The position numbers were made by a program, and so were the translations under genes. A DNA stretch of 42,742 nt from Ilumatobacter sp. (GTDB lineage: Bacteria; Actinomycetota; Acidimicrobiia; Acidimicrobiales; Ilumatobacteraceae): the NCBI GenBank assembly GCA_020439405.1, contig JAGQSS010000003.1:12623-55364 (forward strand). The letters run 5' to 3'. The notes beneath the pieces were generated by a model. That model was not told the DNA's origin. It worked only from the letters and a program-made list of their open reading frames with translations, and ran no database searches. Of the stretch, positions 3,222-22,332 are shown one piece after another; positions within the stretch are counted from its first letter, which is position 1; every line of letters starts with the position of its first letter.

Positions 3222-3285
3222 ACGTCCGGAGACGGACATGGACGGACGGTAAGCCGAGCAGCCGAGCGTCGATCTGCTCGGAGTT

Positions 3286-3326: not shown

Positions 3327-3337
3327 GGACACCGGAT

Positions 3338-3637: not shown

Positions 3638-3648
3638 GTCGTCTCCGT

Positions 3649-3930: not shown

Positions 3931-3973
3931 GCGACTGATGATAACGCTTCCCGTCATTAACGACAAACGTTAT
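3928..3973 (-). promoter_or_regulatory. leaderless higBA promoter with palindromic operator
   Basis: On the minus strand TTGTCG (3961-3966) and TATCAT (3938-3943) are exactly 17 bases apart, and the HigB GTG (3930) follows the -10 box by seven bases. ATAACG (3941-3946) and CGTTAT (3968-3973) are perfect inverted arms. Inside them GTCATTAACGAC is a near palindrome. The arms overlap both promoter boxes, as expected for an operator bound by the HigA-HigB complex. The boxes and repeats are seen; the binding is inferred. Confidence 0.6.
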
Positions 3974-5583
3974 GCACGGCGCCTCCGGCTGGTGGGGAGG
4001 TCGGTCCTAGGCGACTCACGGACGCCGATGGTGACGGCGTCTACGAGTCCGCGACGATCAGTGGCCCCGGTGGCGTGGTCGAGACCATCGTCGACAAGGA
4101 CCAGGACGGCGACTGGGATGTGTGGTCGAGGGACACCGACGGTGACGGCATCGACGACGTGTTCGCGTACGACGAAGATGGTGATGGCCGCAGAGATCGC
4201 GGGGTCCGGGCGCGCGACACGGACGGTGACGGCATCGTCGACATCAGGTTCGAGGATTCAGATGGCGACGGCGCTGCCGACATCACCTCGCCGGCCGACC
4301 CGGAAGGACGTCCGGTGGCCGGGGGCACCGTCCAGTTCGATCGCGACGGTGACGGACGGTTCGAGGAACGACACGAGGACGTCGACGGTGACGGTGTTAT
4401 CGACCACGCCTACTACGACGACGATGGTGATGGCTTTCCCGAGACCACGGTGTCCGACGACGACCAGGACGGTGCCTGGGACGTCGCCTCGCGCGATCGC
4501 GATGGTGATGGCCTCGCCGACGATTGGGCGATCGACTCCGATGGCAACGGGTCCTGGGATCTCTGGGAACGTGACACGGACGGCGACGGAGGGGTCGACG
4601 TCTGGTCGTACGACCTCGATGGTGACGGTCGCCGCGACCCTGGCATCTGGGATGCGGACCTGGACGGCGACGGCGAGCCCGATGTGCGGTACGAGGACAC
4701 CGATGGCGATGGCTTCGCCGATGAGGAGACACTGCTCGACCCTCCCGGAGCGGCGTCCGACGACGAGGTACCCGAGGGACCATCGGAGGGAGGTGTCGGC
4801 GACTGGCAGGAGGTGAGCTGCGATCAGCTCGCGGAACACGCTCGCGCCTCGATCGGACCGGTCTCACTCCCGGGTCTCTCCGACGTCACTCAGGGGCCGA
4901 GTTGCCTCGCGGTGGAGCTTGCTCGATCCGGATACGGCGAGGGTGATGGCGTCTCGTTGTACGCCTCGGTCAGCTTCGATCCAGCCGCACACGCTCTGGC
5001 TGTCGAGGGTCTTCCCGACTTCGATGTCATCGACGGCTCGGTCGAAGTGGCGGGTCAGCTCGGTGTCGATCGCGAGGACACCGGTGGACCGGCCCGCGGT
5101 GTGCTGTTCGACCGACCTGATCTGCATGAGATCTACGCCAACAGGTTCAACATCGACGATGAGGCCGGGCAGATCAGCATCGGCCCGGAACCGCTTCCGT
5201 CGCTGGTCACGCTCGAGTGCGAGGCCGGAGTGCGTTTGAGGATCGGCGGTGTTCTCGTCGTCGTCCAAGCGTACGCAAGAGACTTCATGTGCACGGACTA
5301 CGGGGCGACCCTCCTCCCGCACGAAGGCGTCGATCTGGCCTGGAGCGAGCAGACCGCCGGCGAGTGGGACACCCACGACTACCGGCTGAACGGACCGCAT
5401 TCGGGGACCATCTGCCCGCCTGAGGTGCTCGCGCGTCAGGTGGTGACGTCGCAGGCCGCCTTCGAGGCCGATTTCGAGGCAGCGGTGTCCCTGATCGACC
5501 AGATCGTCGATCGGATCGCCATGCCGGCCTGGGTGTTCGACGAAGACGCTTTCGAGGCCCGTGTCTCGGCGGACAGCGGATGA
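3961..5583 (+). pseudogene. DxDGDG (EF-hand-like) repeat protein lacking its 5' end
   Basis: The frame is open from 3961, with the first repeat (DADGDGVYES) encoded at 4021; the first usable start is GTG 4075, inside the repeat array. From 4021 to about 4730 there are about 14 repeats of xDxDGDGxxDxxx, the calcium-binding loop of thrombospondin type 3 and dockerin-like proteins. An acidic linker and a roughly 270-residue C-terminal domain follow. That domain has several cysteines (VSCDQL, SCLAV, LECEAG, MCTDYG, TICPPE) and I do not recognise it. Such proteins are normally exported, but no signal peptide is encoded. The 5' end is replaced by the higBA promoter, so this is probably a truncated remnant; a non-standard start cannot be excluded. 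Confidence 0.55.
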
Positions 5584-6213
5584 AACGTCGCCCATATGAG
5601 CCCGAATCTGTGCGCCCACGCAGCTGCGCACCTCCGTCGAGAGCGGGATCAACACCCGTCCCACCGAAGTGACCGCGCGGTCCGAGCGGTCCTGACCGGG
5701 CTACAGCCAGGGTCGGCCAGAGCCTGCGAACTTTCTGAGCGCAGGCACGTCGTTGCGGCTCAGCGTCGGCGACACGGTTGTGGGGTCGAAGTACCTCAGC
5801 CAGACAGGCTGAGAACACGGACCGGCGAAGATCCGGCAGAATGCGGGCCCTGAGCAGGTTCGTCGCCCTCCGGGACGTCGCCTGGGCCGTGCCTCAACGG
5901 GCGAGGCACGATGGCCTCTGATGAGGGCCCGCTCGAAGGCGTCAGCTCATCTACCAAGGGTTTTTCGAGCGGATGAGGGGAATCGAACCCCCGTATTCAG
6001 CTTGGGAAACGGAAGTACCTCGACGGCCCGATAGGGCTGTGACCTGGGGATACGTGCGTTGAGCTGGTGATTCGCGCCGTCGGCGCACTGCTGACGGTAG
6101 CCGGTGCTGACCGCTGTCGACCGCTGCGTGAGGCATGGCTGAGGCACGAGACCCTGAAGAGGCAGTCGTTCAGGGTGAGTGGTCCGCGGCCGAACTCGTT
6201 GATGCTCGCCGAC
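5584..6213. other. gene-poor region holding the first tRNA-derived attachment site
   Basis: No credible gene is seen. 5584-5887 shows no recognisable protein or RNA. From 5888 to 6148 the sequence is a partial tRNA-Gly 3' half with flanking repeats (described separately). The region separates the calcium-repeat remnant from the acyl-CoA ligase, whose stop is at 6214. Short reading frames across the tRNA fragment are by-products of tRNA sequence. Confidence 0.6.
5888..6148 (-). repeat. attachment-like site R1: partial tRNA-Gly 3' half with arm repeats
   Basis: The core at 5967-6008 matches the 3' half of the tRNA-Gly at 34483-34553 (T-arm, acceptor 3' strand, up to the anticodon loop) in 38 of 42 bases; the 5' half is missing. 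On the left CGTGCCTC (5888-5895) and GAGGCACG (5903-5910) form an inverted pair. On the right GTGAGGCAT (6128-6136) and CTGAGGCACG (6139-6148) form a direct pair starting 120 bases after the core. About 140 bases right of the core are clearly similar to the same part of R2. This is the layout of a tyrosine-integrase att site. Confidence 0.65.
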
Positions 6214-7746
6214 CTATGCGTTGTGATCCAACTGCTCGCGGAGCTCGCGCTTGAGCACTTTGCCGTAGTTGTTGGTTGGCAGGCTCTCGACGAAGCGGTA
6301 CTCCTTCGGTCGCTTGTAGCGGGCGATGCGTTCGAGGCAAAGCTGGTCGAGCTGGTCGATCGTGGGAGGACGCTCGGCGTCGATGGCGACGACGAACGCG
6401 ACCACGGCTTCGCCCCACTCCGGGTCGGACCGACCGACGACCGACACGGCGGCCACGTCGTCGTGTCGGAGCAGTGCCTCCTCGACCTCGCGCGGGTAGA
6501 TGTTCATCCCGCCGCTGATGATCAGGTCCTTCGACCGATCCCGGAGGGTCAGGAAGCCGTCGGCGTCGAAGCTGCCGACGTCGCCGGTGTGGAGCCAGCC
6601 GTCGCGAATCGCGTCCGACGTCGCGTCCGGTTGCTCCCAGTAGCCCGACATCACGACGTCGCCGCGCACCACGATCTCACCGGTCTCACCCGTCGGCAGC
6701 GCAACACCGTTCTCGTCGACCACCCGGACCTCGACGTCGGTGCGCACGGCTCCGACGCTCTGCATCCGTTCGGCCCAGCGAGGATGGTCGCGGTCTGCGT
6801 GGTCGGCCTTCGACAAGGCCGTGATCGTCATCGGCGTCTCACCCTGCCCGTAGATCTGTGCGAGGCGAGGCCCGAACACCTCGAGCGCTCCTGTGAGATC
6901 GGCGAGGTACATCGGCGCGCCGCCGTAGACGATCGTCTTCAACCCGGACAGGTCGGCGTCGAGGATCGCCGGGTCCGACGCGAGTCGCTTCACCATCGTC
7001 GGGGCGGCGAAGAACGACACGCCCGACCGCCGCCGGAGCACGTCGGCGATCTCGGTGCCGTCCACACCTCCGGACGGCGGGATGACGCTGACCGCGCCCC
7101 GCGCCACGTGGGGGAGCGCGTAGAGGCCGGCGCCGTGCGAGATCGGCGCGGCGAGCAGCACGGCGTCGTCGGCGGTGATCGAGTCGATGTCGGCGAAGTA
7201 GCTGAGCGACATCACCAGCAGATTGCGGTGCGTGAGCGTGGCACCCTTCGGTCGGCCGGTCGTGCCGCTCGTGAAGAACAGCCACGCCGCGTCCGCCGGC
7301 CGCCGGTCGGTGATCGCGATGCCTGACGCACCTGCCAGTTCGGCCCAGCGCCGGCCCGTCGCGACGATGCAGGTGCCGAGCGTGTCGATGTCGTCGGCCA
7401 GCGTGTCGAGGTCGTGGTGGTCCTCGTCGACCACGACGGCACTCGCGGCGCTCTGCTCGAGGACGTAGGCGACCTCGTCGCGATGCAATCGCGCGTTGAT
7501 CGGCACCGCGACCAGGCCGGCGTGCCAGATCGCGAACAGCGCTTCGAGGTACTCCGGCCGGTTGCGCATCACGATCGCGACGCGGTCGCCCGGCTGGAGT
7601 CCGAGCCGATGGCGGAGTCCGCCGGCCAGACCGGCCACTCGGGTCGCCACGGTGGCCCAGTCGGCGTGGACCTCGTGGCCGACGGCGATCGCCGGCCGCC
7701 CCGGCCAGCGCTGTGCATTCCGCTCGACCCACACGGCGAGGTTCAT
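6214..7746 (-). CDS. AMP-dependent acyl-CoA synthetase (ligase)
   Basis: A 510-residue member of the ANL superfamily that would activate a carboxylic acid to its CoA thioester through an acyl-AMP. The phosphate-binding loop FFTSGTTGRPKGA is at residues 157-169. YGQGETP is the adenine/A5 motif, GWLHTGD holds the ribose-binding Asp, and GKVLKRELRE near the C-terminus holds the catalytic Lys. Length and motifs are complete. It is the last gene of a minus-strand operon, 15 bases after the PPOX gene and downstream of an LLM oxidoreductase. The substrate (fatty or aromatic acid) is not readable. Confidence 0.9.
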   Translation of the reverse strand: MNLAVWVERNAQRWPGRPAIAVGHEVHADWATVATRVAGLAGGLRHRLGLQPGDRVAIVMRNRPEYLEALFAIWHAGLVAVPINARLHRDEVAYVLEQSAASAVVVDEDHHDLDTLADDIDTLGTCIVATGRRWAELAGASGIAITDRRPADAAWLFFTSGTTGRPKGATLTHRNLLVMSLSYFADIDSITADDAVLLAAPISHGAGLYALPHVARGAVSVIPPSGGVDGTEIADVLRRRSGVSFFAAPTMVKRLASDPAILDADLSGLKTIVYGGAPMYLADLTGALEVFGPRLAQIYGQGETPMTITALSKADHADRDHPRWAERMQSVGAVRTDVEVRVVDENGVALPTGETGEIVVRGDVVMSGYWEQPDATSDAIRDGWLHTGDVGSFDADGFLTLRDRSKDLIISGGMNIYPREVEEALLRHDDVAAVSVVGRSDPEWGEAVVAFVVAIDAERPPTIDQLDQLCLERIARYKRPKEYRFVESLPTNNYGKVLKRELREQLDHNA

Positions 7747-7761
7747 CTCAGGTCTCCAATC

Positions 7762-8196
7762 TCATGCGTCCGACGGATCGCTCGCGGCCCAGCCGGTGAT
7801 GGCGACGATCTCGAACACGTGCACCGTCGCGAACGGCTGGTCCCGGTATTGCACGAACAGCTCGGCCAATCGGTCCGCGAGCGCGTCGGTCGTGTCGTGT
7901 GGGCCGTGACCGAGCCAGCGGAGCCGGGCGCGTACCCACCACAGCTTCGACCAGTCGTCGCGATCCCATCGTTCGATCGCCAGCGTCGCTCGTGGGTCGT
8001 GTTCGAGGTTGCGCTCGCGCTGCAGCCGGGTCGACGACTTGGGCTTCACGAGGTCGACCGGCGACCCCACGTGGTTGCCGACGACGGCGTACACGGTCGG
8101 GCCGACGTCGATGCCGAGTTCCGGATGCTGGGTCGCCATGAACCCGTGGCTGTGGCCGCGGAGCCACTCGTTCGCGAGATCCTTCGACAGCTGCAT
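7762..8196 (-). CDS. PPOX-class F420-dependent oxidoreductase (TIGR03668/Rv0121-like)
   Basis: A 144-residue split-barrel protein of the pyridoxamine-5'-phosphate oxidase-like fold. It shows an early substrate-site strand (TVYAVVG), the basic DLVKPKSSTRLQRERNLEHDPRA cofactor-binding region, and the signature DRDDWSKLWWVRARLR seen in the Rv0121-type F420 family. It probably binds F420 and reduces an unsaturated or quinone-like substrate. It lies between an LLM oxidoreductase (28 bases upstream) and an acyl-CoA ligase (15 bases downstream), so the three probably form one operon. The family assignment is by motif and needs a profile search to confirm. Confidence 0.75.
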   Translation of the reverse strand: MQLSKDLANEWLRGHSHGFMATQHPELGIDVGPTVYAVVGNHVGSPVDLVKPKSSTRLQRERNLEHDPRATLAIERWDRDDWSKLWWVRARLRWLGHGPHDTTDALADRLAELFVQYRDQPFATVHVFEIVAITGWAASDPSDA

Positions 8197-8224
8197 CGGC
8201 CCGACCGTACGCGCCGTACGCGGC

Positions 8225-9223
8225 TCAGGCGGCGTTGACCGCCGGCAGGATCTCGTCGTTCAAAACCCGCAGATCCTCGAGCGTCTTCGACGTCGGCACG
8301 TCGGCGAACGGCGGCCAGATCAACGGCATGGTCATCCCGGCCTCCTTCAGCTCGATCAAATTGCTCGTGATCTGCTCCTGGGTGCCGCTCAGCAGGTTGG
8401 TGAGCTTCCCGTTGCGGGTCTGGTCGGTCGGCTCGTCGGTGATCACGAACCAGCACATGCTCGACACCTCGAGCTCGTCGACCGACTTGGCGCCGAGAGC
8501 ATCGAGCTCCTCGCCGATCGCCTCCAGCCACACTCGCAGCTCCTCGGGCGTGTCCTGGATGCCGATCCAGCCGGACAGATCGTACTTGGCGACCTTCTTT
8601 GCGGAGATCTTCGGGTTGACGAGGCCGCTCATGAAGATCGGCGGGTGCGGCTTCTGCACGGGCTCCCAGCCGAAGCCGCTCGGCGCGAAGTCGGCGAACT
8701 CGCCGTGGTACTCGAAGGTCTCGTTGGTCCAGATCCCCTGGCAGATTTCGATCGTCTCACGCACGTGAGCATGACGACGAGGGAAGATGTCGGTGGCGCT
8801 CGCAGCGTCGAACTCCTCGGGCATCCAGCCGGCACCGACGCCGACGTTCAGGCGGCCACCCGAGAGGTGATCGATCGTGGCGCACTCGGCCGCGAACACG
8901 CCGGGCGAGCGGTATGGGGTGTCGGTGATGCTCATGCCGATGCGGCACTTCTCGGTCTTGGCGGCAAGCCACGGGATGAGCGGCCAGCCCTGGAACCACT
9001 TCCCGTTCGACGAGACCGGCATCTGGAGTGGGAACTGGTCCATCATGCCGAACGGGTACTTCATCTCGCCCCGGTCGGATGCCTCGGGCACGATGATCCG
9101 GTCGAGTGTCCAGATCGAGTCGAACTCGAGCTCCTCGGCGAGCGCCGTGAGATCCTCGAGCTCCTTGATCGTGACGTGGTCGCGGAAGTTGGGCAGGTAG
9201 AGCGCGAGCTTCATGTCGGCCAT
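8225..9223 (-). CDS. LLM-class (luciferase-like) F420-dependent oxidoreductase
   Basis: A 332-residue TIM-barrel flavin/F420 enzyme. LALYLPNFRDHVTIKELEDL opens the fold, SIWTLDRIIVP follows, and HLSGGRLNVGVGAGWMPEEF is the family hallmark, then PRRHAHVRETIEICQGIW and KPHPPIFMSG. ATG 9223 was preferred because GAGGGGAC lies upstream at ribosome-binding distance and upstream in-frame codons look non-coding. It is first in the operon with a PPOX protein and an acyl-CoA ligase. It differs from the two LLM proteins of the catabolic cluster. Whether it uses F420 or FMN cannot be told by eye. Confidence 0.88.
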   Translation of the reverse strand: MADMKLALYLPNFRDHVTIKELEDLTALAEELEFDSIWTLDRIIVPEASDRGEMKYPFGMMDQFPLQMPVSSNGKWFQGWPLIPWLAAKTEKCRIGMSITDTPYRSPGVFAAECATIDHLSGGRLNVGVGAGWMPEEFDAASATDIFPRRHAHVRETIEICQGIWTNETFEYHGEFADFAPSGFGWEPVQKPHPPIFMSGLVNPKISAKKVAKYDLSGWIGIQDTPEELRVWLEAIGEELDALGAKSVDELEVSSMCWFVITDEPTDQTRNGKLTNLLSGTQEQITSNLIELKEAGMTMPLIWPPFADVPTSKTLEDLRVLNDEILPAVNAA

Positions 9224-9407
9224 GAGTGATGTCCCCTCGTTCGAGTCGTTCGGGGCCCCCATGACCCGTGAACATGTGCGCACCCGTGGGTCCGCATGGC
9301 CGACCGTACGAAACGCAGCTGGCCGCTCGAACAACGCCATCTCAACAGTTGGTCAACGAGGCGGGCCGACTCCGATCCCGTTCCTGTCGAGCGGATACCG
9401 TCTGGTC

Positions 9408-10139
9408 GTGGGGATCAGTCGACACGACGTCGGCCGACGGGTGCTCGTCGTCGACGACGACGAGGGTGTGCGCACAGGTGTGACCTGGGCGCTCGAGGCC
9501 GACGGCTTCGACGTCGAAGCCGTCGAGAACGGTGTGCACGCACTCGAGCGGATCGAGTCGTCACCTCCCGCGCTCGTGGTGCTCGACCTGTCCCTTCCCG
9601 GCGTCGGCGGGCTCGACATCCTGCGTCGCGTTCGCGAGCGGGAGGAACGGGAGCGGAGCTTCCGGCTGCCGATCATCGTGCTGTCAGGACGCGACGGCGA
9701 AGCCGACCGAATCGTCGGCCTCGACCTCGGCGCCGACGACTATCTGGTCAAGCCGTTCTCGCCGGGCGAGCTCGCCGCCCGTGCCCGCTCGGTGCTCCGA
9801 CGGTGCGGCGACTACGGGGGCGGACGGAACGATCGGTTCGTGCCGGTCGGCACGGGCGTCGAGGTCGACGTGGTGTCGCGCGACGTCTGGCTCGACGGCG
9901 AACCGGTCGATCTGGCGGCCAAGGAGTTCGAGCTGCTCGCCTACTTCGTCGAGCATCCGCGCCGCGCGTGCACTCGTGACGAGCTGCTGGCGGCGGTGTG
10001 GTCGAGCAGCGAGGGATGGCAGACGCCGGCGACGGTGACCGAGCACGTGTACCGCCTCCGCCAGAAGTTGGAGGACGACCCAGGTCGACCGAAGCTGCTC
10101 ACGACCGTGCGCGCGGTGGGGTATCGATGGGAGGGGTGA
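9408..10139 (+). CDS. OmpR/PhoB-family response regulator
   Basis: A 243-residue two-component regulator. The receiver domain begins RRVLVVDDDEGVR (acidic pocket), with the phosphoacceptor Asp in VVLDLSLPGVGG, then the switch region VLSGRD and the conserved Lys in DYLVKPFSPGEL. The C-terminal winged helix (AKEFELLAYFVEHP, then TVTEHVYRLRQKLEDDP and VRAVGYRWEG) binds DNA. GTG 9408 was chosen because it sits just before the receiver domain; the longer frame would overlap the divergent LLM gene. The last 13 bases overlap the kinase gene. Confidence 0.9.
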   Translation: MGISRHDVGRRVLVVDDDEGVRTGVTWALEADGFDVEAVENGVHALERIESSPPALVVLDLSLPGVGGLDILRRVREREERERSFRLPIIVLSGRDGEADRIVGLDLGADDYLVKPFSPGELAARARSVLRRCGDYGGGRNDRFVPVGTGVEVDVVSRDVWLDGEPVDLAAKEFELLAYFVEHPRRACTRDELLAAVWSSSEGWQTPATVTEHVYRLRQKLEDDPGRPKLLTTVRAVGYRWEG

Positions 10140-11431
10140 CGACGCTCTCGGGCGACGAGGTGACGGCGGTGCTCGATCGACAGACATCGGTGATGGAGCA
10201 GCTCGCGGCCGGCGACCGGCTCTCCGACGTCCTCGAGGGGATCGTCGTGGCACTCGAGGAGCTCATCCCCGGCAGTCGCTGCTCGGTGTTGCTGCTCGAC
10301 GAGGCCGGCGTGCTGCGCCATGGCGCGGCGCCGACGCTCCCGGCCGGGTACTCGTCAGCGATCGACGGGCTCGAACCGGGCCCGCTCGCCGGCTCGTGCG
10401 GCACGGCCGTGTACCAGGGGGAGCAGGTCGTCGTCACCGATGTGCTGTCAGATCCTCGGTGGGCGTCGTTCCGTGACCTCGCCGTCGAACACGACATCGG
10501 AGCCTGTTGGTCGAGCCCGATCCGCTCCGAGTCCGCAATCGTCGGGACGTTCGCGGTCTACGACCGTCGCCCCCACGAACCCGACACACGGGAGCGCGAG
10601 CTCGTCCGCCGCTTCACGCACCTCGCCTCGATCGCGGTCGCCCACGACGGTGCCGCGAGAGAGCGCGAAGCGCGCCACATCGCCGAGCTCGCACGACAGA
10701 CGGCCGAGCGGGCGAACCACGCGAAGTCGCAGTTCGTCACCGCCCTCAGTCACGAGCTGCGAACCCCGCTGCAGTCGATCACCGGGTTCACGGAGAGCCT
10801 GAGAACGCTCGACCTGTCGCCCCATCGCCGCCGCCAGGCGCTCGACGGCATCTCGAACGCGTCGGCGCACATCCTCTCGATCGTCGACGACGTGCTCGAT
10901 CTCGCGAGGGTCGAGGCCGGTGCGATGCCGATCGTGCTCGAGCCGGTCGACGCGGCAGCGGTCGCCCTCGCGACCGTGGCGCTGACCCAACCGCTCGCTG
11001 AGGCGCGCAACGTGGGCGTCGAGTGCGTTGGTCAAGCGGCCGAAGTCGTCGCGGATCGCCGCCGGCTGCAGCAAGTCCTGCTGAATCTCGTCTCGAACGC
11101 GCTCCGCTTCTCCAGCCCGGACACGATGGTCACGATGCGCACCGAGGCGGACTCCGATCGTCGACCCGGCGCGGCGAGCATCCACGTGATCGATCAGGGG
11201 CCGGGCATCCCGGAGGAGCTCATCGACCGACTGTTCGTGCCGTTCGATCGTCTCGGGGCCGATGCCGGTCGCGAGGGCGGCGCCGGTCTCGGGCTCGTCC
11301 TGGCCAGACGGCTGACGGAGGCGATGGGCGGGACGCTGGACCTCGACAGCACCGTCGGCGTCGGTACCCATGCCACGATCACGCTGCAACAGCCCTCGAC
11401 CGAGTCGCCGGCGGCGTGCCGCAGCAGATGA
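10127..11431 (+). CDS. GAF-domain sensor histidine kinase
   Basis: A 434-residue kinase with no membrane helices, hence a cytoplasmic sensor. The GAF domain covers roughly residues 20-175 (ELIPGSRCSVLLLDEAGVLR, GSCGTAVYQGEQVVVTD, CWSSPI). The H box ALSHELRTPLQS holds the phosphorylated His. The ATPase domain has the N box NLVSNALRFS, G1 DQGPGIPEE and G2 GGAGLGLVLARRL. ATG 10127 overlaps the regulator gene by 13 bases, so the pair is co-translated. Its signal is unknown, perhaps a small molecule or redox state sensed by the GAF domain. Confidence 0.92.
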   Translation: MGGVTTLSGDEVTAVLDRQTSVMEQLAAGDRLSDVLEGIVVALEELIPGSRCSVLLLDEAGVLRHGAAPTLPAGYSSAIDGLEPGPLAGSCGTAVYQGEQVVVTDVLSDPRWASFRDLAVEHDIGACWSSPIRSESAIVGTFAVYDRRPHEPDTRERELVRRFTHLASIAVAHDGAAREREARHIAELARQTAERANHAKSQFVTALSHELRTPLQSITGFTESLRTLDLSPHRRRQALDGISNASAHILSIVDDVLDLARVEAGAMPIVLEPVDAAAVALATVALTQPLAEARNVGVECVGQAAEVVADRRRLQQVLLNLVSNALRFSSPDTMVTMRTEADSDRRPGAASIHVIDQGPGIPEELIDRLFVPFDRLGADAGREGGAGLGLVLARRLTEAMGGTLDLDSTVGVGTHATITLQQPSTESPAACRSR

Positions 11432-11589
11432 GGGACGCACGCCCCCTCGAGGGCATCCGAGATTCGTGCGAACCCGTTCTGTGACGGGACCGGCTGAAGA
11501 GCCCTCCAGACTCCGCGGTTGCTGAGACGCCACCGCGGCTCGGACCGTCGTCAGATGACGCCGAGCGTCGCGGGGAGCGACGGCGACGT

Positions 11590-11962
11590 CAGGAACATCA
11601 GACTGCACAGCGGATGTTCGTCTACCGCACTTGCCCTGGTCAGCGACAGTCTCGAATCGTGTCGGGGCCAGCGTCGTGCCTCATACGTGCCTCAGCCGTG
11701 AGGCACGAAGCTGAGTCGGGCGCACTCAGGTCGCGGGTGTCGCATGCTCCTGCATGTGCTCTGAGCAGGACGTTCGCGTGGAGCGGATGAGGAGAATCGA
11801 ACTCCCGTCATCAGCTTGGGAAACGGAAGTTCCTCGACGGGTTGGCAGCGCTGTGACCTGGGGAAACGTGCGATGAGCTGGTGACTGACGCTGTGGGCGC
11901 AGTGCTGACGCTACCCGGTGCTGACCCCTGTTGATCTCTGCGTGAGGCACGGCTGAGGCACG
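11590..11962 (-). repeat. attachment-like site R2: tRNA-Gly 3' half with both repeat arms
   Basis: The core at 11773-11822 is identical over 50 bases to 34474-34523, which covers the 3' half of the intact tRNA-Gly and its downstream flank. Left arm repeats are CGTGCCTCA (11675-11683), CGTGCCTCA (11686-11694) and GTGAGGCACG (11698-11707). Right ones are CGTGAGGCACG (11941-11951) and CTGAGGCACG (11953-11962). The left arm matches R3 in spacing and also shares GAACATC/GATGTTC (11593-11599, 11613-11619). The right arm matches R1, again 120 bases from the core. R2 thus has the arm-core-arm form of an attP or of a junction between tandem islands. Confidence 0.75.
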
Positions 11963-12222
11963 GCCGCCGCCAGCGCGAGATGAGCAGATCGCGCACACTT
12001 GACGGATCTGCTCGGCCAGAACATCGTGTAGTCGGTGGGACTATCGAGCCCGTCGTGCGGGCCGTAGTGCGGAGCGGCCCGACGGCTGGACACCGGAATA
12101 CGGAGCTCGCGTTCTGGGCGGATGCCTCGGGGCGACGGACGATCGCAACGCCGTTTCAGAGTGGGCTTGAGCGTCGTCGGCGTGTGGAGATGTCACCCCC
12201 GGCCGCGGTGTGCCGGTTCACT

Positions 12223-12471
12223 CTTCGCGGTTGGCGAGATCACCATCGAGTCGACACCGTTCAACTGGCGTTGCCGGTTCTTCACTGTTGCGGGCTCGAG
12301 CATGCTGTTGCGATCGCGGCGCACGTCGATGTCGACCGAGCCAACTTCGGTGATCACCAACTTGGAACGTGTGCCGTCGCGGCAGTTCCCGCAGTTGCAG
12401 CGTGCCGAGCCGTGGTTCGTGTCGCCGACATGCTCATCCATCTCGACCTCTAGGCCGGTCTCGAGGATCTG
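12223..12471 (-). pseudogene. remnant of an IS256/mutator-type transposase
   Basis: The minus strand encodes about 83 residues that follow the N-terminal part of IS256-family transposases: LETGLEVEMDEHVG (family form LEAEMDEHLGY), then NCRDGTRSKLVITEVGSVDI (family form NSRNGxxxKTVxTExGPVxI), DVRRDRNSMLEP, KNRQRQLNGVDSMVISPTAK. Similarity stops abruptly after TAK, where GLTTGEI would be expected, and a stop codon follows. The DDE catalytic domain is absent, so this is a dead fragment. It lies next to R2 at the island edge. Confidence 0.75.
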
Positions 12472-12716
12472 CATTGTTGAGACCAACCAGGAGTCCGCCC
12501 GAGCCGACCGACCCCTTCCACGCGTGCTCGAGTGTCGAGCGCCTCGGCGGCCGATTACTGCGGCCCGACCCTTAATGATGTAGCACCTGGGTCGGCAACT
12601 GACTTCAAACAACTGGCGCTTCCCCGTTGTGACCTTGCACCCCTCGCCAATCTGTGACTTTCACCTTCAATTGGGTCTGTACTCGAACTTGGCGCCCGGG
12701 GCAGACTTGAGACCTC

Positions 12717-13718
12717 ATGACGGGCCGTCCTCCGAAGTTCAGCGTGCGCCTCTCGAGTGGGGTGCGACCAGAAGCCTTTCGGGACGCTGCGATGGCGGCG
12801 GAGGAGGCCGGATTCGATCAGATCTGGACCGGCAACGACCAGTTCAAGCGGTCCGGTATCGTCCCCGTCGCTCTGGCATTGGACGCCACGTCCCGGATTC
12901 GGGTCGGCTCGAGTGTGCTCAACACGGTCACGCTGCATCCGATCGAGATCGCGTCGTTGGTCGCCAATCTGCAGGATCTCTCGGGCGGTCGGTACCTCCT
13001 CGGGCTCGGTGCGGGGTCCGAGGTGTACCTGCGATGGATCGATGCCGATCTTGCCTCGCCCGTCGAGCGGACCCGACGAGGTCTCCGCATCGTCCGCGCT
13101 CTGCTCGAAGGTCGGAAGGTGAACGAACTCCCCGGAGAGGAGCGCTGGAGCGACAACGCGCGGTTGATCGGCCCTCCGGTCGCGTCGACACCGATCTATG
13201 TCGGCGCCATGGGTCCGCGGATGCTCGCGATGGCGGGACGCGAGGCCGATGGTGTGCTCGCACTCTGTCTGCCTCCGTCGCACGTCGCCTGGGTGCGAGA
13301 TCAGGTCGGCTCCGGTGCGGCCGAAGACAGCGACTTCGATCTCGCGTGCTGCGTGTGGGTCTCGATCGACGAGGATGCGCATGCTGCACGAGAGCGGCTT
13401 CGGCCGAAGATCGCGGCCGCCGGGGGCCACCTGTCGAGCGACGCCTTGCTGCGTGCCGGCATCGACCCGGAACGGTGCGCGCACGTCCAATCGATGTGGG
13501 ACGCCGGCAACGAAGCCGAGGCACTCGCATCCGTCGATGAGTCGATGATGCAGCTGGGTATCGCCGGGGACACCGATCTGGTGATCGAGCAGTGCAGCCG
13601 GCTACTCGGCATCGGCGTCCGCCATTTGTCGTTCGGGCAACCGCTCGGCGAGTCGCCCATCGAGGCGGTCCAACTGTTGGGTTCGCGGGTGCTGCCCGCA
13701 TTAAGAGAGAGGTTCTGA
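12717..13718 (+). CDS. LLM-class flavin/F420-dependent oxidoreductase (paralogue 1)
   Basis: A 333-residue luciferase-like TIM-barrel enzyme. AEEAGFDQIWTGND, LHPIEIASLVANLQDLSGG, YLLGLGAGSEVYL, PIYVGAMGPRMLAMAGREAD and LSFGQPLG mark the fold and active-site region. It could be an F420H2-dependent reductase (methylene-H4MPT reductase-like) or an FMNH2 monooxygenase; the motifs do not decide. It opens the catabolic cluster, four bases before the acyl-CoA-dehydrogenase-like monooxygenase. Its paralogue at 21282 shares many of the same segments. No flavin reductase gene is nearby. Confidence 0.85.
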   Translation: MTGRPPKFSVRLSSGVRPEAFRDAAMAAEEAGFDQIWTGNDQFKRSGIVPVALALDATSRIRVGSSVLNTVTLHPIEIASLVANLQDLSGGRYLLGLGAGSEVYLRWIDADLASPVERTRRGLRIVRALLEGRKVNELPGEERWSDNARLIGPPVASTPIYVGAMGPRMLAMAGREADGVLALCLPPSHVAWVRDQVGSGAAEDSDFDLACCVWVSIDEDAHAARERLRPKIAAAGGHLSSDALLRAGIDPERCAHVQSMWDAGNEAEALASVDESMMQLGIAGDTDLVIEQCSRLLGIGVRHLSFGQPLGESPIEAVQLLGSRVLPALRERF

Positions 13719-13721
13719 GAC

Positions 13722-14918
13722 ATGACCACCACCGAGCGCATCAGCTCGACGACGTGGCCCACGGATCTGCGCGAGCCGACCACGTCGGAGGCGATCCTGC
13801 ACAACGTCCGATCGATCCTGCCGGTCGTGACGACCGAGGCAGCTCCGTCGAACGAGCAGGGGTACATGACTTCGGCCATGACCGAGGCCTGCCGAGCGGC
13901 GGGGATCTTCCGTGTCGGCTTCTCGCGCGAGCGAGGCGGGCCCGAGATGTCGATCTCGGATCAGACCCGGATGGTCGAGATGGTCGCGACCGTTGACGCG
14001 TCGATCGCGTGGAACGTCACCGTGTTGGCCGCCACCGGATTCTATGCGGGACGCCTGTCCGACGGCGCATTCGCCGAGCTGTACCCGGACCTCGACCGGG
14101 CCACGTGTGGGTCGTTCCACCCCAAGGGTGTCGCACGTCAGGTGGAGGGCGGATACCGGGTGAGTGGCAACTGGAACTTCGGCAGCGGGATTCGGTCGTC
14201 CGACCGCATCGTCGCCGGTGCCGAGGTGGTCGACGAAGTGGGCGAGCCCGTGTTGAAGGACGACGGCTCGCAACTGACCCTCGGTGTCTGGCTCCCCACT
14301 GATGATGTACGTCTACGCGACGACTGGCACACGATCGGTCTCCGCGGCTCGGGAAGTCAGGGGTACGCCGTCGACGATGTGTTCGTGCCGGCCGATCACA
14401 GCTTCGACCGCTTCTTCGCCGGCAACGCGACTGCGCCGCCCCTGTCGAAGCACCCCGACCTGCCCTTCTACAGCATGGGCGGTATCTCACTGGGTATCGC
14501 CCGCCACGCGATCGACATCGTGTCGACGGAACTCGCGAAACGTTCGGGTGCGCGCGCACCGGGCGAGCGCAGCTTGGCGCTCCTCGGTGAGGCGGACTCT
14601 TGCCTACGAGCGATGAGGGCGACGATCTACGCGGGCCTGTCACAACTCGACGAGGAGACGTTCACCCCGGGCGCGGTGCCGTCGACCCGCGCGCTCGCGC
14701 GTGGCGACGCTCCGTTCGCCGCCGAACTCGCGCGGCGCGTGCTCGACATCTGCGTCGATCTGTACGGCTCCAAGACGATCTACGAGGTGAATCCGCTCGA
14801 GCAGCTGATCCGAGATCTGGTCGGGCTCAGCGTCCACTTGTCGACTTCTCGTGCGATGTGGTCGCGGGTCGGCCAAGTCGTGCTGGACGAGTACGCGCGA
14901 GACGGGGAGGGGTCATGA
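13722..14918 (+). CDS. acyl-CoA dehydrogenase-like (group D) flavin monooxygenase, paralogue 1
   Basis: A 398-residue protein of the acyl-CoA dehydrogenase fold, of the kind used by two-component monooxygenases (HsaA, DszC and IacA types), which take FMNH2 or FADH2 from a partner reductase. Visible segments are IFRVGFSRERGGPEMSI, ATVDASIAWN, GFYAGRLSDGAFAELYP, CGSFHPKGVA, GGYRVSGNWNFGSGIRSSD and LRGSGSQGYAVDDVFVPADH. The usual catalytic Glu of true dehydrogenases is not apparent. The stop overlaps the next start as ATGA. It probably hydroxylates an aromatic or heteroaromatic ring. Confidence 0.82.
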   Translation: MTTTERISSTTWPTDLREPTTSEAILHNVRSILPVVTTEAAPSNEQGYMTSAMTEACRAAGIFRVGFSRERGGPEMSISDQTRMVEMVATVDASIAWNVTVLAATGFYAGRLSDGAFAELYPDLDRATCGSFHPKGVARQVEGGYRVSGNWNFGSGIRSSDRIVAGAEVVDEVGEPVLKDDGSQLTLGVWLPTDDVRLRDDWHTIGLRGSGSQGYAVDDVFVPADHSFDRFFAGNATAPPLSKHPDLPFYSMGGISLGIARHAIDIVSTELAKRSGARAPGERSLALLGEADSCLRAMRATIYAGLSQLDEETFTPGAVPSTRALARGDAPFAAELARRVLDICVDLYGSKTIYEVNPLEQLIRDLVGLSVHLSTSRAMWSRVGQVVLDEYARDGEGS

Positions 14919-16168
14919 GCCTCACCGACGATCCTGAGTCGTCCTCGACGACCGAGGCGCGGGTCGCGGCGGTCATGGCCCGGCGTCGCCGAGGAGACGA
15001 CGCGCGGCGGGCGTCCGGTCGTGCCGACTGGTCGTCCTGGCCGGAGTACGAGGCAGCCGACAAGGGCCTGCGCGACTACTGGTATCCGGTCGAGTGGTCG
15101 TCCGAGGTCGGCCGGCACCCGGTCGGCGTGCGCGTGTGCGGCGAAGACCTCGTCCTGCAACGCGACGAGCAGGGAACCGTGTACGCGTTGCACGACCGTT
15201 GTCCTCACCGCGGTGTCCCGCTGTCACTCGGCAAGGAGGAGTTCCCGGGAACGGTGACGTGTCCATACCACGCGTGGACGTTCGATCTCGCGAGCGGTGA
15301 ACTCGTCGCAGTGATCACCGACGGTCCGGATTCGCCGATGTGTGGGAAGGCAAACGTCACGACGTACCCGACCGCGGAAGCGGTCGGCTTGGTGTGGGTC
15401 TTCGTCGGCGACCGCGAACCGCACCCGCTCTCGGATCAACTCCCCGAGGAGCTCGTCGACCCGCCCGCCTACGCCGTCGGTGGCCGGATCCAGGATCGTT
15501 CTGGTGACTGGCGCCTGTACGCGGAGAATGGTTTCGACGAGGGCCACGCCAAGTACCTGCACCGCACCAGCTACTGGCGGATCTTCAAGACGATGCCGAC
15601 GTGGAACAAGGTCCACATCGAGCGGCACGGGCGCTGGATCTACCGGATCGAGGACGAGCGGCACTGGGAGGCCGACTTCCCGGGTCTCGGGCGCTGGTCG
15701 AACGACCGATGGTGGAAGATCAAGCCGAAGCAACAGCAGGGCAAGATGTTGGGGAACACGGGAGGCTCCAAGAAGAACGACTCCTACATCGCCGGTCAGG
15801 GACTTCCCGGATTCGCGTCCCTGTCACTGCCGGGTGTGCTCCGCATCGCTTATCCACAGTTCATCCACTACGAGTTCTACGTGCCGATTGAGTCCGGCCG
15901 CACGAAGTACGTCGGTGTGATGGTCCAGTTCAAGACCGGATTCCAGCGGGCCGCCTTCTTCCTCAAGTACCTCGGCGGTATCCGGTGGCTGTTCCACGGC
16001 AACTTCTCCAGCCAGGACCACTGGATGGTCGAACACACCGACGCGCCGCCTGAACGGTTGTATCGCCCCGACATCTCGCTGATCGAGTGGCGTCGCCTCG
16101 TCGAAGAGGGCAACCCGTTCGACCCCGCAAGCGCCGACCACGCCGAGTCGACGGAGGATGGTCGCTGA
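14915..16168 (+). CDS. Rieske non-heme iron oxygenase, alpha subunit
   Basis: A 417-residue ring-hydroxylating oxygenase. The Rieske [2Fe-2S] ligands are Cys96/His98 (CPHRGV) and Cys116/His119 (CPYHAW). The catalytic domain has ENGFDEGHAKYLHR, giving the bridging Asp208 and iron ligands His211 and His216. The length and the single-subunit look fit the alpha-only phenoxybenzoate/KshA-type oxygenases. No ferredoxin, reductase or beta-subunit gene lies in the window, so electrons must come from elsewhere. ATGA overlap upstream and TGATG overlap downstream place it inside the operon. It would mono- or dihydroxylate the ring before cleavage. Confidence 0.93.
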   Translation: MSLTDDPESSSTTEARVAAVMARRRRGDDARRASGRADWSSWPEYEAADKGLRDYWYPVEWSSEVGRHPVGVRVCGEDLVLQRDEQGTVYALHDRCPHRGVPLSLGKEEFPGTVTCPYHAWTFDLASGELVAVITDGPDSPMCGKANVTTYPTAEAVGLVWVFVGDREPHPLSDQLPEELVDPPAYAVGGRIQDRSGDWRLYAENGFDEGHAKYLHRTSYWRIFKTMPTWNKVHIERHGRWIYRIEDERHWEADFPGLGRWSNDRWWKIKPKQQQGKMLGNTGGSKKNDSYIAGQGLPGFASLSLPGVLRIAYPQFIHYEFYVPIESGRTKYVGVMVQFKTGFQRAAFFLKYLGGIRWLFHGNFSSQDHWMVEHTDAPPERLYRPDISLIEWRRLVEEGNPFDPASADHAESTEDGR

Positions 16169-17052
16169 TGCCGGTCGAGATCAGTCCGGAACCTCAGGGC
16201 CGCATCGTCGATGCCGGCGGGCTCGGCTATCACGTGATTGAGATGGGCTCTGGCCCGCCAACGTTCTTCTTGCACGGCGGCGGACCCGGCTGCACCGCGT
16301 GGACGGACTTCGGCCCGGTCGCACCGCTGTTCGCCGCCAACCGCACCTGCTACCTCGTCGATCTCTTGCAGTACGGCAAGTCCGAGAAGTGCACGATCAG
16401 TGGCCCGATGTGGGATTTTCACGCTCGTACCGTGTGCGATCTGATGGACGCGCTCGGCGTGGACCGGGCCGACTTCGTCTGCAACTCCTGGGGAGGCACG
16501 ATCGCCCTCGCCCTGGCCGCGAACTTCCCGGAGCGGACTCGCAGCCTCGTCGTGACGGGTTCGATGCCGGTGTTCCACGGCCCGCTTGCTCCCCTGCCCG
16601 AAGGCGGGCGGCGTGGTCGCAAGGCGCGCGACGCCTACTTCGGCGGTGACGGTCCGTCCTGGGAGAAGATGCGTCAACTAATGGCCGACCTCGAGTGGTA
16701 CGACCCGAGCGAGATCCCAGACGCGACGGTCACGATGCGCTTCGAGCAGTCGGTGGACGTCGACGAGATGGAGCTCGCCGCCCGCTCCGACAGTCCGCGC
16801 GGCGATTGGCAGGACCTCAGCGACGCGCTCGGCCGCATTCGGTGCCCGGTGCTCTTCGCGTGGGGGATGTACGACGACTTCCTGACGCCCGACTACCCGT
16901 TGATGCTTGCCCGGATGGTCGAGCACGGACAGCTGTACGTCATGGACAAGGCGTCTCACCACCTGCAGGAGGAGCGCCCACAGCACTACTACTCGGTCGT
17001 GTCGGGCTTCCTCGACCAGACCGACCGATTCGCACCGGAGGACCATCGCTGA
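16168..17052 (+). CDS. alpha/beta hydrolase, meta-cleavage-product (C-C bond) hydrolase type
   Basis: A 294-residue alpha/beta hydrolase resembling BphD/MhpC. FLHGGGPGCTAW is the oxyanion region with the triple Gly of this subgroup. The nucleophile elbow CNSWGG holds Ser107, with Cys in place of the first Gly. WGMYDDF holds the acid residue and KASHHLQEE the catalytic His. In a meta pathway it would split the ring-opened dienoate into 2-hydroxypenta-2,4-dienoate and an acid. ATG 16168 overlaps the Rieske stop. Three hydrolases of this fold occur in the cluster, so which one acts on the meta product is uncertain. Confidence 0.85.
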   Translation: MPVEISPEPQGRIVDAGGLGYHVIEMGSGPPTFFLHGGGPGCTAWTDFGPVAPLFAANRTCYLVDLLQYGKSEKCTISGPMWDFHARTVCDLMDALGVDRADFVCNSWGGTIALALAANFPERTRSLVVTGSMPVFHGPLAPLPEGGRRGRKARDAYFGGDGPSWEKMRQLMADLEWYDPSEIPDATVTMRFEQSVDVDEMELAARSDSPRGDWQDLSDALGRIRCPVLFAWGMYDDFLTPDYPLMLARMVEHGQLYVMDKASHHLQEERPQHYYSVVSGFLDQTDRFAPEDHR

Positions 17053-17180
17053 TGCGCCGTTTCGCCACCACTTCGACCCTGTTCGCCGTCGTGCTCGCCG
17101 GTGCCGTGCTCTTTCGTTCGCAGTTGGTCCGCCTGCTCACGCGCACGACGGGCACGTGGATCGGCGCGCCGCGTGGCTGA
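17052..17180 (+). CDS. small single-span membrane protein (42 aa), unrecognised
   Basis: A 42-residue frame starts at ATG 17052, overlapping the hydrolase stop (TGATG), and ends inside the start of the next gene (GTG 17173, 8-base overlap). It has a basic start (MRRF), one hydrophobic helix (LFAVVLAGAVLF) and a basic tail (RSQLVRLLTR). The tight overlaps at both ends fit this operon's gene-to-gene style and argue for real translation. I recognise no family. It may be a membrane anchor, a small regulator or a chance frame. Confidence 0.4.
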   Translation: MRRFATTSTLFAVVLAGAVLFRSQLVRLLTRTTGTWIGAPRG

Positions 17181-18483
17181 TCCCGAGGCGATCGTCGCCG
17201 CTGCCGAGGCGGCCGTCGACCGTGACCGTCTCGTCGAGCTGTGCGCGGCGATGGTCGACATCGCCTCACCGACGGGGAACGAGGGTCCGCTCGCTCGCCT
17301 TCTCGCCTCCGAGATGACCGCGTCGGGGCTCGACGGCAGGACCCAGGACCTGACCAAGGGTTCATGGCTGGGAGGCGACATGGCCAACGCCTACGGGCGG
17401 TGGCGTGGTGACGCGTCCGACCGGTCACTGATGCTGTACGCGCCGCTCGACACGGTGACGACGGGCGACCCGGCGGAGGACCTCCCATGGGCAGGACCCA
17501 ACATGCGCGCCGACATGACCCCGGCGGCCGAGACGCGCGACGGGCTGGTGATCGGGCTCGGTGCGCAGAATCCGAAGGGCCATGGTGCATGCGTGTTGGT
17601 CGCCGGTGAGGCGCTCGCGGCAGTCGAGGCACCGCTAGGCGGCGACCTCCTGTTCGGGTTCGGCGCCGGCGGTATGCCCACGAACCGGCGGCGACCGGGC
17701 CTGCATCCTGGCCACGGGGTCGGTTGCGCAGCGCTCGTCGACCTCGTGCAGCCGGACGAAGCGGTCATCGCTAAGACCGGGTGGGCAATCTCGTGGGAGG
17801 AGGTCGGCCTGATGTGGTTCACCGTGGAGGTCGAGGGCGCGCACACGTACGTCGGGAGTCGGCACCTGTTGCCGTATCGGAACGCGATCGCGGATGCCTC
17901 CCACATCGTGAGTGGTCTCGAGCGTTGGTTCCCTACCTGGGCGGAGTCGCACCGCGACGGACTCGTCGCGCCCCAGGGCGTCGTCGCATCGATCGAAGCG
18001 GGGTGGGAGCGGATGGCGGCCTTCACCCCGGCCGTGTGCCGCTTCAGCGTCGATCTCCGCATCAGTCCGCGTACCACTCCGGACGAGGCTGCCCGTGCCT
18101 TCATCTCCGAAGTCGAGCGTCTCGCACGGGAGATCGGGGCGGAGGCGACGTGTTCGGTCGACGTGACGATCCCAGGGACGACGACCTCGCCCTCGTCACC
18201 GATCATCACGTCGGCGATTCGATGCTGGGAAGACCTCGAGGGTCGGGCACATCAGCCGATCGCCGGGTTGTCCGGAGCCACGGACGCGAACATCCTGCGC
18301 TCGCACGGCGTGCCGACCGCTCGAGTCGGTTTGCCGAAGGTGAGTTCCGATCGCCTCGAGGCCGACTTCCAGCTCGGCATGAACGCGGTCGACGTCGATG
18401 ACATGGAGCGCCTCACCAAGTTGTTGATCCGGATTGCCGTCGATCGTCTCGGTGTGGGCGACGGAAGCGGAGTTCGGGCATGA
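17173..18483 (+). CDS. M20-family peptidase/amidohydrolase homologue with missing metal ligands
   Basis: A 436-residue protein with the M20 layout: N-terminal catalytic half, dimerisation insert (WFTVEVEGAHTYVG ... VCRFSVDLRISP) and a C-terminal return (GLSGATDANILRSHGVPTARVG). Zinc ligands look lost: the HxD motif reads PLDTV (residues 91-95), the bridging Asp motif reads GAQNPKGHG (Asn133), and the Glu-Glu pair is replaced by FGAGGMP near 163-169. It may use a different metal set, act non-catalytically, or hydrolyse an amide or lactone another way. GTG 17173 was chosen for the operon overlap; the stop overlaps the next gene as ATGA. Confidence 0.75.
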   Translation: MADPEAIVAAAEAAVDRDRLVELCAAMVDIASPTGNEGPLARLLASEMTASGLDGRTQDLTKGSWLGGDMANAYGRWRGDASDRSLMLYAPLDTVTTGDPAEDLPWAGPNMRADMTPAAETRDGLVIGLGAQNPKGHGACVLVAGEALAAVEAPLGGDLLFGFGAGGMPTNRRRPGLHPGHGVGCAALVDLVQPDEAVIAKTGWAISWEEVGLMWFTVEVEGAHTYVGSRHLLPYRNAIADASHIVSGLERWFPTWAESHRDGLVAPQGVVASIEAGWERMAAFTPAVCRFSVDLRISPRTTPDEAARAFISEVERLAREIGAEATCSVDVTIPGTTTSPSSPIITSAIRCWEDLEGRAHQPIAGLSGATDANILRSHGVPTARVGLPKVSSDRLEADFQLGMNAVDVDDMERLTKLLIRIAVDRLGVGDGSGVRA

Positions 18484-19469
18484 GCTCGATCGTGATCGGC
18501 GCGGCGGCGTCGCACACGACCTTGATGAACACGAAGTGGGACGAGGTCGACCACCTCAGGCGTGCCCACCGGTACCGCGACGCGCTCGCGGTCGCCCGCG
18601 AGCGGATCTCGGCGGCCCATCCCGACCTAGTGGTCATCGTCGGCTCGAACCACTTCCGAGGGTTCTGGCTCGATCTCATGCCCGCCTTCACGATCGGGGT
18701 CGATCGAGTCGTCGCTGCCGGCGAACACGGAACGCCGTCCGGTCCACAGCGGACGGATCCATCGGCCGCACTCGCGCTGTGCCAGAGCTTGCTCGACCGT
18801 GACATCGACGTTGCGTTCTCGACCGACCTGCAGGTCGATCACGGGGTCTCCCATGCGATCCAGTACCTCGTCCCCGAGGGACTTCCCGTGGTTCCGCTGA
18901 TCGTCAACGTCTTCGGGCCGCCGCTGCCGAGCCTGACGCGTTGTCTCGCCGTCGGCGAGGCGCTCCGTCGCGCGGCGGCCGGCCTCGCCGGCGGCCGACG
19001 GGTCGCGGTCATCGGAACCGGTGGGCTGTCCCACGCCGTGCCGTTTCCCGACTGGCGCGATCCCGTCGGTGACGACGAGGAATTCCTGGCGCGTAGCTTC
19101 CGCGAAGGTCGCGGCCGTTGGGAGGAGTTCGAGTCGCGTCGTCGCCCAATCGTCACGGGCGCCACCCCGCGACTGAACGAGGACTTCGACCGTGAGGTAC
19201 TCGACCTGCTCGCTCGTGGCCGACTGTCTGTGCTCGCCGAGAGCTACACGACCGAGTCGCTCGTCGCGAGCGCCGGAAACGGTGCCAACGAGGTCCGCGC
19301 CTGGATGCTGACGGCCGCCGCCCTCGGCCATTGCCCGGGTGAGGCGCTCGCGTACTCGCCGATGCCCGAGTGGCTCACGGGCATGGCCGTCGCCGTGATC
19401 GAGCCCGACGTCGGCGCCGCCGCGTCGTCACCCCACCCGCCCCATCCCACCCAGGAGGAATCCATATGA
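18480..19469 (+). CDS. class III extradiol ring-cleavage dioxygenase (LigB/MhpB type)
   Basis: A 329-residue Fe(II) dioxygenase that opens a catechol-like ring next to its hydroxyl groups. GAAASHTTLM gives an iron-ligand His near residue 12 and VGSNHFRGFW another. QVDHGVSHAIQYL and GTGGLSHAVPFPDW hold the two His that correspond to the catalytic acid/base pair of LigB/MhpB. It overlaps the M20-like gene before it and the hydrolase after it (both ATGA), so it is central to the operon. With the downstream hydratase, aldolase and dehydrogenase it defines a meta-cleavage pathway. The substrate is not known. Confidence 0.9.
   Translation: MSSIVIGAAASHTTLMNTKWDEVDHLRRAHRYRDALAVARERISAAHPDLVVIVGSNHFRGFWLDLMPAFTIGVDRVVAAGEHGTPSGPQRTDPSAALALCQSLLDRDIDVAFSTDLQVDHGVSHAIQYLVPEGLPVVPLIVNVFGPPLPSLTRCLAVGEALRRAAAGLAGGRRVAVIGTGGLSHAVPFPDWRDPVGDDEEFLARSFREGRGRWEEFESRRRPIVTGATPRLNEDFDREVLDLLARGRLSVLAESYTTESLVASAGNGANEVRAWMLTAAALGHCPGEALAYSPMPEWLTGMAVAVIEPDVGAAASSPHPPHPTQEESI
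19453..19458 (+). promoter_or_regulatory. perfect AGGAGG ribosome binding site
   Basis: AGGAGG lies seven bases before ATG 19466, inside the 3' end of the dioxygenase gene. It is the strongest ribosome binding site I see in the cluster and fixes the start of the following hydrolase. It suggests that this hydrolase is translated more strongly than neighbours that rely on stop-start coupling alone. Confidence 0.75.
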
Positions 19470-20326
19470 GCATCTGGACCGATCTCACTGGCCTGTCGTT
19501 TTCCGTCGACTTCGTCGACGCCGGCGGCGTGCCGACGCGTGCACTGACGGCCGGACCTCTCGACGGTCCGCCGGTCGTCTTCCTGCATGGCACGAGCGGA
19601 CATCTCGAAGCGTTCAGCCGAAACATCGGCCCGCACGTCGCGGCCGGGTTTCGCTGTCATGCCATCGACATGCTCGGCCACGGATACACCGGCAAGCCCG
19701 ACTACCAGTACGAGATCCCGCGATACGTCGAGCATCTTGTCGCGTATCTGGACGCACAGGGCATCGGTGCCGCCCATCTCGTCGGGGAGTCACTCGGCGG
19801 CTGGGTCGCCGGTTGGCTGGCGAGTGAACAACCCGACCGTGTCGCCAGCCTGCAGCTGGTGGCGGCAGGTGGGACCAAGGCGAATCCCGAAGTGATGAAC
19901 CGCATCAAGACGTCGACCACGAAGGCGGTGACGGAGGACGACATCGATCTGACGCGGCAGCGCCTGCACCTGCTGATGTACGATGGCGAGAAGGACGTCA
20001 GTGAGGAACTCGTCGAGATCCGGCACGCGATCTATCACCATCCGGACTTCGTCTCGAACCTGCACAACCTGCTCTGCCTCCAGGAAATGGAGATTCGCCA
20101 ACGCAACCTGATGCGGCCGGAACGCCTCGCGGCGATCGACGTGCCGACCATGATCGTGTGGGGCAACGAGAATCCGTTCGGCGAGGTGCCCGAGGCCACC
20201 GCGATGCACGAGACGATCGAGGGCTCCCGTCTCGAACTTGTCGGCAAGTGCGGCCACTGGCCGCAGCACGAACAAGCGGATTGGTTCAACCCGGTCAGCA
20301 TCGGGTTCATCGAGGCGAACCTGTGA
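19466..20326 (+). CDS. alpha/beta hydrolase, probable meta-cleavage-product hydrolase
   Basis: A 286-residue hydrolase. VVFLHGTSGHLEAF is the oxyanion region, LVGESLGGWVAGWLA the nucleophile elbow (Ser), and GKCGHWPQHEQ holds the catalytic His. The acid position in VWGNENPF reads Asn where Asp is usual, though a neighbouring Glu could serve. The early DAGGVPTRAL and late GHWPQHEQADWFN are typical of C-C hydrolases. It directly follows the ring-cleaving dioxygenase by ATGA overlap, which makes it the best candidate for hydrolysing the ring-opened product. Confidence 0.85.
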   Translation: MSIWTDLTGLSFSVDFVDAGGVPTRALTAGPLDGPPVVFLHGTSGHLEAFSRNIGPHVAAGFRCHAIDMLGHGYTGKPDYQYEIPRYVEHLVAYLDAQGIGAAHLVGESLGGWVAGWLASEQPDRVASLQLVAAGGTKANPEVMNRIKTSTTKAVTEDDIDLTRQRLHLLMYDGEKDVSEELVEIRHAIYHHPDFVSNLHNLLCLQEMEIRQRNLMRPERLAAIDVPTMIVWGNENPFGEVPEATAMHETIEGSRLELVGKCGHWPQHEQADWFNPVSIGFIEANL

Positions 20327-22289: not shown

Positions 22290-22332
22290 CCAGCCGGTCT
22301 CCCCGAACCCCTACCCAACAGAAAGGTACGAC

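Follow-up and report, generated by a model that had tools for sequence, protein, structure and literature searches.

Predicted integrase docking sites at the ends of stacked, integrase-less islands behind a tRNA-Gly gene

Lambda-type tyrosine integrases use arm-type as well as core-type sites. Islands that lack an integrase but have kept their att sites are called cis-mobilizable elements (CIMEs), with ICESt1-related tandem accretion described in Streptococcus (PMC5704250). Tandem islands at ssrA of Dehalococcoides comprise 16 with an integration module and 15 without one (PMC3146451), and in CALIN arrays, which hold no integrase, the cargo is moved by a helper recombinase (PMC11389934).

The window analyzed here, a stretch of 42,742 nucleotides from an Ilumatobacter sp. 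contig, contains nested insertions on the 3' side of a tRNA-Gly(CCC) gene, namely the elements E2 and E1 and a remnant, E0. These are CIME-like tandem islands and so of a known kind; less usual are a shared integrase-free end and arm sites whose letters follow the integrase tree. As in CIMEs, we saw no integration or transfer genes in E1 and E2, and these stand in tandem at one site with both attL and attR kept (E0 lacks a distal core). Unlike in CIMEs, the integrase-free ends are common to unrelated cargo and to several species, and we infer mobilization here. The Dehalococcoides islands likewise stand in tandem, carry catabolic or adaptive genes and have repeats of an RNA gene's 3' end at their boundaries, and about half of them lack a recombinase, but they use a serine recombinase and a tmRNA target, whereas the arms here are of the tyrosine-integrase type and the target is a tRNA-Gly anticodon loop in actinobacteria. 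Putative arms flank the core in unequal numbers left and right, as in lambda, here with the motif GTGCC-NN in 3 + 2 sites. Among arrays that depend on a helper, CALINs, which also lack an integrase, come closest in function, but their helper is known whereas ours is predicted, and the attachment sites here are of the tRNA type, ~375 bp long, in elements of up to 23 kb. A true CALIN or integron array appears unlikely, as no attC-type sites were encountered in the ends, which consist of the tRNA core and arms, and Rfam finds only the tRNA. In window coordinates, the features are:

34479..34552, minus strand: intact tRNA-Gly(CCC), the integration target (ARAGORN, Rfam, alignment)
34292..34481, plus strand: E2 left end (attL side), with inverted pair and three arms
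34376-34383 (minus), 34387-34394 (minus, TGAGGCGC) and 34399-34406 (plus): E2 left arm sites
34481..34522, plus strand: R3 core, tRNA 3' part to the anticodon loop (TCAGC-TTGGGAA)
11781..34480: element E2, 22.7 kb
11821..11962, plus strand: E2 right end at R2, with arms at 11943-11950 (plus) and 11954-11961 (plus)
11781..11822, plus strand: R2 core, displaced tRNA-Gly 3' part
11592..11781, plus strand: E1 left end at R2, with inverted pair and three arms
11676-11683 (minus), 11687-11694 (minus) and 11699-11706 (plus): E1 left arm sites
5967..11780: element E1, 5.8 kb
6007..6148, plus strand: E1 right end at R1, with arms at 6129-6136 (TGAGGCAT) and 6140-6147
5967..6008, plus strand: R1 core, older displaced tRNA-Gly 3' part
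5889..5909: second-type left arm of E0, GTGCCTCA-N5-CGAGGCAC
3224..5966: distal remnant E0
3224..34478: whole island, missing at the orthologous site of genome G102

R1 and R2 are copies of the tRNA-Gly 3' half that stop at the anticodon loop (TCAGC-TTGGGAA), where a common sequence starting ACGGAAG replaces the tRNA 5' half; by alignment, the 3' half of the intact tRNA-Gly(CCC), from the anticodon loop onward, was contributed by E2. In the complete genome of the relative G102, the counterparts of window positions 2473-3223 and 34481-36795 are separated by 76 bp, so the 31-kb island is absent there. The 3'-side insertion, the distal repeat of the tRNA end and the restored tRNA are those of a tRNA-targeted island. 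A tRNA-like core was sought at the distal end of E0 and not found, and ends resembling its second-type left arm also occur in G106 and G108. Outside the island, G102 and G103 lack ~2.2 kb of the window (36801-38960, with PS_pyruv_trans and DUF6395-like genes) in their syntenic stretches.

A preliminary description of this DNA had placed three sites at offsets 0, 11 and 23 in the left arms at R2 and R3, and this holds for both: at R2 they are GTGCCTCA at 11676, GTGCCTCA at 11687 and TGAGGCAC at 11699, and at R3 they begin at 34376, 34387 (TGAGGCGC, one mismatch) and 34399. The inverted GAACATC/GATGTTC pair does sit identically at R2 (11593-11599/11613-11619) and R3 (34293-34299/34313-34319), beginning 83 bp, not 82 bp, 5' of the first left arm. 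Similarly, the right-arm pairs at R1 (TGAGGCAT, one mismatch, at 6129 and a site at 6140) and R2 (11943 and 11954) both have an 11 bp step and lie at the same distance beyond the shared core end, 121 bp rather than the 120 bp first given. The claim that both orientations occur on each side of a core applies to the left arms; the right-arm sites both point the same way. The inverted pair (11592-11620 and 34292-34320) forms a hairpin fold whose pairing is intact in two of four related left ends, with changes to GATCGTC in G103 and GAACCTC in G106.

Exact TGAGGCAC words number 9 in the window versus 1.4 expected under a first-order Markov model, and all nine are located at R1-R3. When up to one mismatch was allowed there was no enrichment in the window (46 versus 37 ± 7), so the signal resides in position and spacing. 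With up to one mismatch, matches to the 11-bp pair in the 4.4-Mb assembly are limited to the four expected places, and the three-site pattern with at most three mismatches is present at 3 places among 221 family genomes, each with a tRNA-Gly core; the reversed pattern gave 0 matches in these genomes. Left arm sites are 91% identical versus 70% for the remainder of the left end, a value equaled by 1 of 161 slid placements, while conservation of the right arms does not exceed that of the remaining right end (28 of 125 placements equally high). Four three-site matches in unrelated genome contigs, apart from that in G103, were chance-like and had no tRNA or core in the stretches read. Left- and right-arm scans of viral contigs found nothing, and among the matches listed from phage and plasmid collections only the tRNA-like core was covered.

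The cargo of E2 is devoted to aromatic catabolism, with F420/LLM oxidoreductases, an HsaA-like monooxygenase, a Rieske oxygenase and a LigB dioxygenase, together with hydrolases, an ABC transporter, DmpF (acetaldehyde dehydrogenase) and a DmpG-like aldolase. E1 carries an AMP-ligase, a PPOX-class F420 protein, an LLM oxidoreductase, a response regulator and a histidine kinase, and E0 a HigBA-type toxin-antitoxin pair (3330-3984) and a 502-aa ORF. No match to the integrase family was found in E1, E2 or E0 or elsewhere on the contig of the window, so that none of the three has the integrase of its own that is usual for autonomous tRNA-targeted islands; the ORFs of E1 and E2 mostly fall into other families, and a few small ones were unassigned. 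Contigs C364, G103:C18, G106:C105 and G107:C342 and the stretch G108:3528012-3551129 were devoid of matches in scans with one Pfam family, which highly diverged recombinases could escape. A search for integrase remnants gave none at E below 0.02 in the integrase-less elements examined, and as a positive control it recovered a deleted integrase pseudogene of G102. A Mutator-type transposase fragment lies just within the right end of E2 (12193-12612).

We found that profiles of both ends match G103, G106 and G107 and, more weakly, G108. Identity among ends drops from ~0.8 to ~0.4 just inside the left inverted pair and just beyond the last right arm, and this sharp drop at both edges delimits a conserved unit of ~190 bp, the core and 142 bp. 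The 190-bp integrase-free left end is common to R2, R3, G103 and partly G106, with unrelated cargo beyond it: in G103 the element between such ends is 1.3 kb long and holds a HigBA-type toxin-antitoxin pair, and in G106 two elements in series carry P-type ATPase/CopCD and Rieske/ZnuA genes. Arrays of elements with integrase-free ends are present in G000, G103, G106 and G108. The HigBA pair of E0 is 91% identical over 655 bp to that of the 1.3-kb G103 element, with no boundary arm here. At one place in G106 (L079 11745-11854 and 11628-11754) a left and a right end are fused, the core and third arm having been deleted; elsewhere in this genome a contig end at tRNA-Gly (L239) matches a junction within the C105 array (L079 3999-4090), with 99% identity along 92 bp.

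Relatives that do carry an integrase have a similar arrangement of repeats. At tRNA-Gly(TCC), G102 has a related 6.2-kb element flanked on both sides by arms of AGGCACG form, and the integrase gene adjoining its left arm has suffered an internal deletion. Intact integrase-bearing relatives occur in G108 (two), G106 and G114, then more across the family and class. A tyrosine integrase gene adjoins the tRNA-Gly 3' end at 15 loci in the class, and paired arms lie in between, two direct repeats, 10-11 bp apart, of GTGCCTA or GTGCCAC (in a few loci GTGCCAG or ATGCCTA), followed by inverted copies in 2 of the 15 and by a third direct copy in others. A further locus shows this arrangement at a tRNA-Ala. 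The repeats of integrase-bearing relatives fall in a GTGCC-NN class with 10-12 bp steps and lie between the tRNA-Gly and the integrase start codon, which in most of these loci is within ~20-50 bp of the arms. Their letters track the integrase tree (2 changes versus a shuffled mean of 7.6). In G108, the tRNA orthologous to that of the window is occupied by a 75-kb element whose two ends carry identical TTCTAGGCACGTTGTAGGCACG arms, with an integrase beside attL; a scan of ten of its large ORFs gave no conjugation gene. Repeats on both sides of the core, as in lambda-type systems, are thus present in this element, and at the 15 loci they were seen at the left ends. The 75-kb element adjoins a stretch of 23 kb that has no integrase and whose right end resembles the TGAGGCAC type, and this arrangement, seen in G108 only, suggests the adjacency of CIMEs to autonomous elements.

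Among 397 genomes of the order, GTGCCTCA-N3-GTGCCTCA was confined to two places in this window and two in G633, and both G633 pairs adjoin integrase genes. The first is 44 bp upstream of an intact integrase frame with lysine at the position of the second catalytic Arg (HDLKH), and the second follows the end of a different integrase gene by ~250 bp. These integrases branch deeply in the tree and are only remotely related to the tRNA-Gly group (the first shares ~33% identity with it), and no tRNA was found in either stretch. The two loci (L228 4528-4634 and L229) share a 107-bp segment, 86% identical, beside the GTGCCTCA pairs. No helper integrase for the TGAGGCAC elements was found: the integrases of G000 and G103 have no TGAGGCAC pair within the stretches examined around them, and similarity to a G633 integrase returned many generic integrases, none singled out. 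As the window genome is 79% complete and in 1030 contigs, a helper could be missed or absent.

Searches of the 4.4-Mb assembly and of the 221 and 397 genomes run counter to a general intergenic repeat unlinked to tRNA cores. The expectation that the arm pattern would accompany a linked tyrosine integrase was borne out at the 15 tRNA-Gly loci with sister arms, while no such locus had GTGCCTCA arms; equally, the concern that complete elements might use other motifs was half right, in that those at tRNA-Gly have GTGCCTA and GTGCCAC, both sister motifs, as their arms. Homology now gives a name to the integrase family, which the first reading could not name, but not to the specific TGAGGCAC enzyme. 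Together, the empty G102 site, the sister arms and the G633 pairs make integrase arm sites, rather than random repeats, the best-supported reading of the sequence.

We therefore consider the repeats to be, very probably, integrase docking sites at the ends of stacked mobile islands. In full, our preferred reading, to which we assign a probability of about 0.83, is that a tyrosine integrase uses the TGAGGCAC sites as its arms, and that these sites are situated in the ends of integrase-less tRNA-Gly(CCC) elements that are moved by a borrowed integrase. It builds on the island structure, the empty site, the conserved ends, the missing integrase and the sister-arm relatives, and it predicts binding, excision and a helper. 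A tyrosine integrase of the broad GTGCC-arm family would bind the arms and recombine at the anticodon-loop core. As each element end consists of arms and a tRNA 3' half, insertion would restore the tRNA and displace the previous 3' half outward, and successive insertions would leave the order E2, E1, E0 from the tRNA. The excised attP would comprise the left end (190 bp, with the inverted pair and three arms), the core and the right end (142 bp, two arms), and the circular junction expected for E1 and E2 is left end-TCAGCTTGGGAA-ACGGAAG-right end. Since the cargo holds no integrase, mobilization would fall to that of another element, which may act in trans or through co-excision with a neighbor, as in CIME-like accretion.

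The main rival, independent decay, concerns this mobilization step alone, and the sites would still be arm sites under it. It holds that these are ordinary islands, now immobile, each of which lost its own integrase from beside the left arms after insertion. Such decay is exemplified by the internally deleted integrase of G102, and erosion is visible in the fused G106 ends and the missing distal core of E0, so that parts of the arrays may be fossils, and independent decay may account for these eroded copies. However, the same integrase-free 190-bp left end precedes unrelated cargo in R2, R3, G103 and partly G106, and since the integrase starts within ~20-50 bp of the arms in most loci of the relatives, a single inner sequence common to all would not be expected from separate losses. 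The common ends instead suggest that the loss preceded the spread. Given also that no integrase remnant was found in the elements, we regard independent decay as rather unlikely overall.

A special case of the borrowed-integrase reading is that these are specialized non-autonomous cargo elements with stable integrase-free ends served by one helper in trans, a CALIN or MITE analogue on tRNA sites. The arrays in four genomes and the common ends, whose cargo ranges between 1.3 kb (toxin-antitoxin, G103) and 22.7 kb, are consistent with this, but the helper was not found, the genomes are few, and co-excision with an autonomous neighbor explains the data equally, G108 holding both side by side; we consider it unlikely on present evidence. 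Its extension, in which an integrase-free cargo family with fixed ends spreads through marine actinobacteria, as we take the host lineage to be, by means of a trans-acting integrase picked by an arm code (GTGCC-TA/-AC/-TCA), and builds up stackable arrays at tRNA-Gly, is offered equally tentatively. Far less probable is that the repeats are operators or other regulatory sites that merely lie near tRNA copies. Short inverted words can bind regulators, and the GAACATC pair does fold as a hairpin, but the sites are restricted to element ends at set positions around the core, and relatives have such sites beside integrase genes.

The borrowed-integrase reading would explain how catabolic, metal-resistance and toxin-antitoxin genes gather behind one tRNA with no adjacent integrase in a little-studied marine lineage. 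Integrase-based island finders would overlook such elements, and the arm letters offer a testable rule for matching orphan elements to helper integrases. A second arm family, of GTGCAAC repeats (GTGCAACCTACGTGCAAC), lies behind tRNA-Gly cores in G103 and G105 (L024 11609 and 5039, L238 1404, and L234) and includes a 1.65-kb G105 element.
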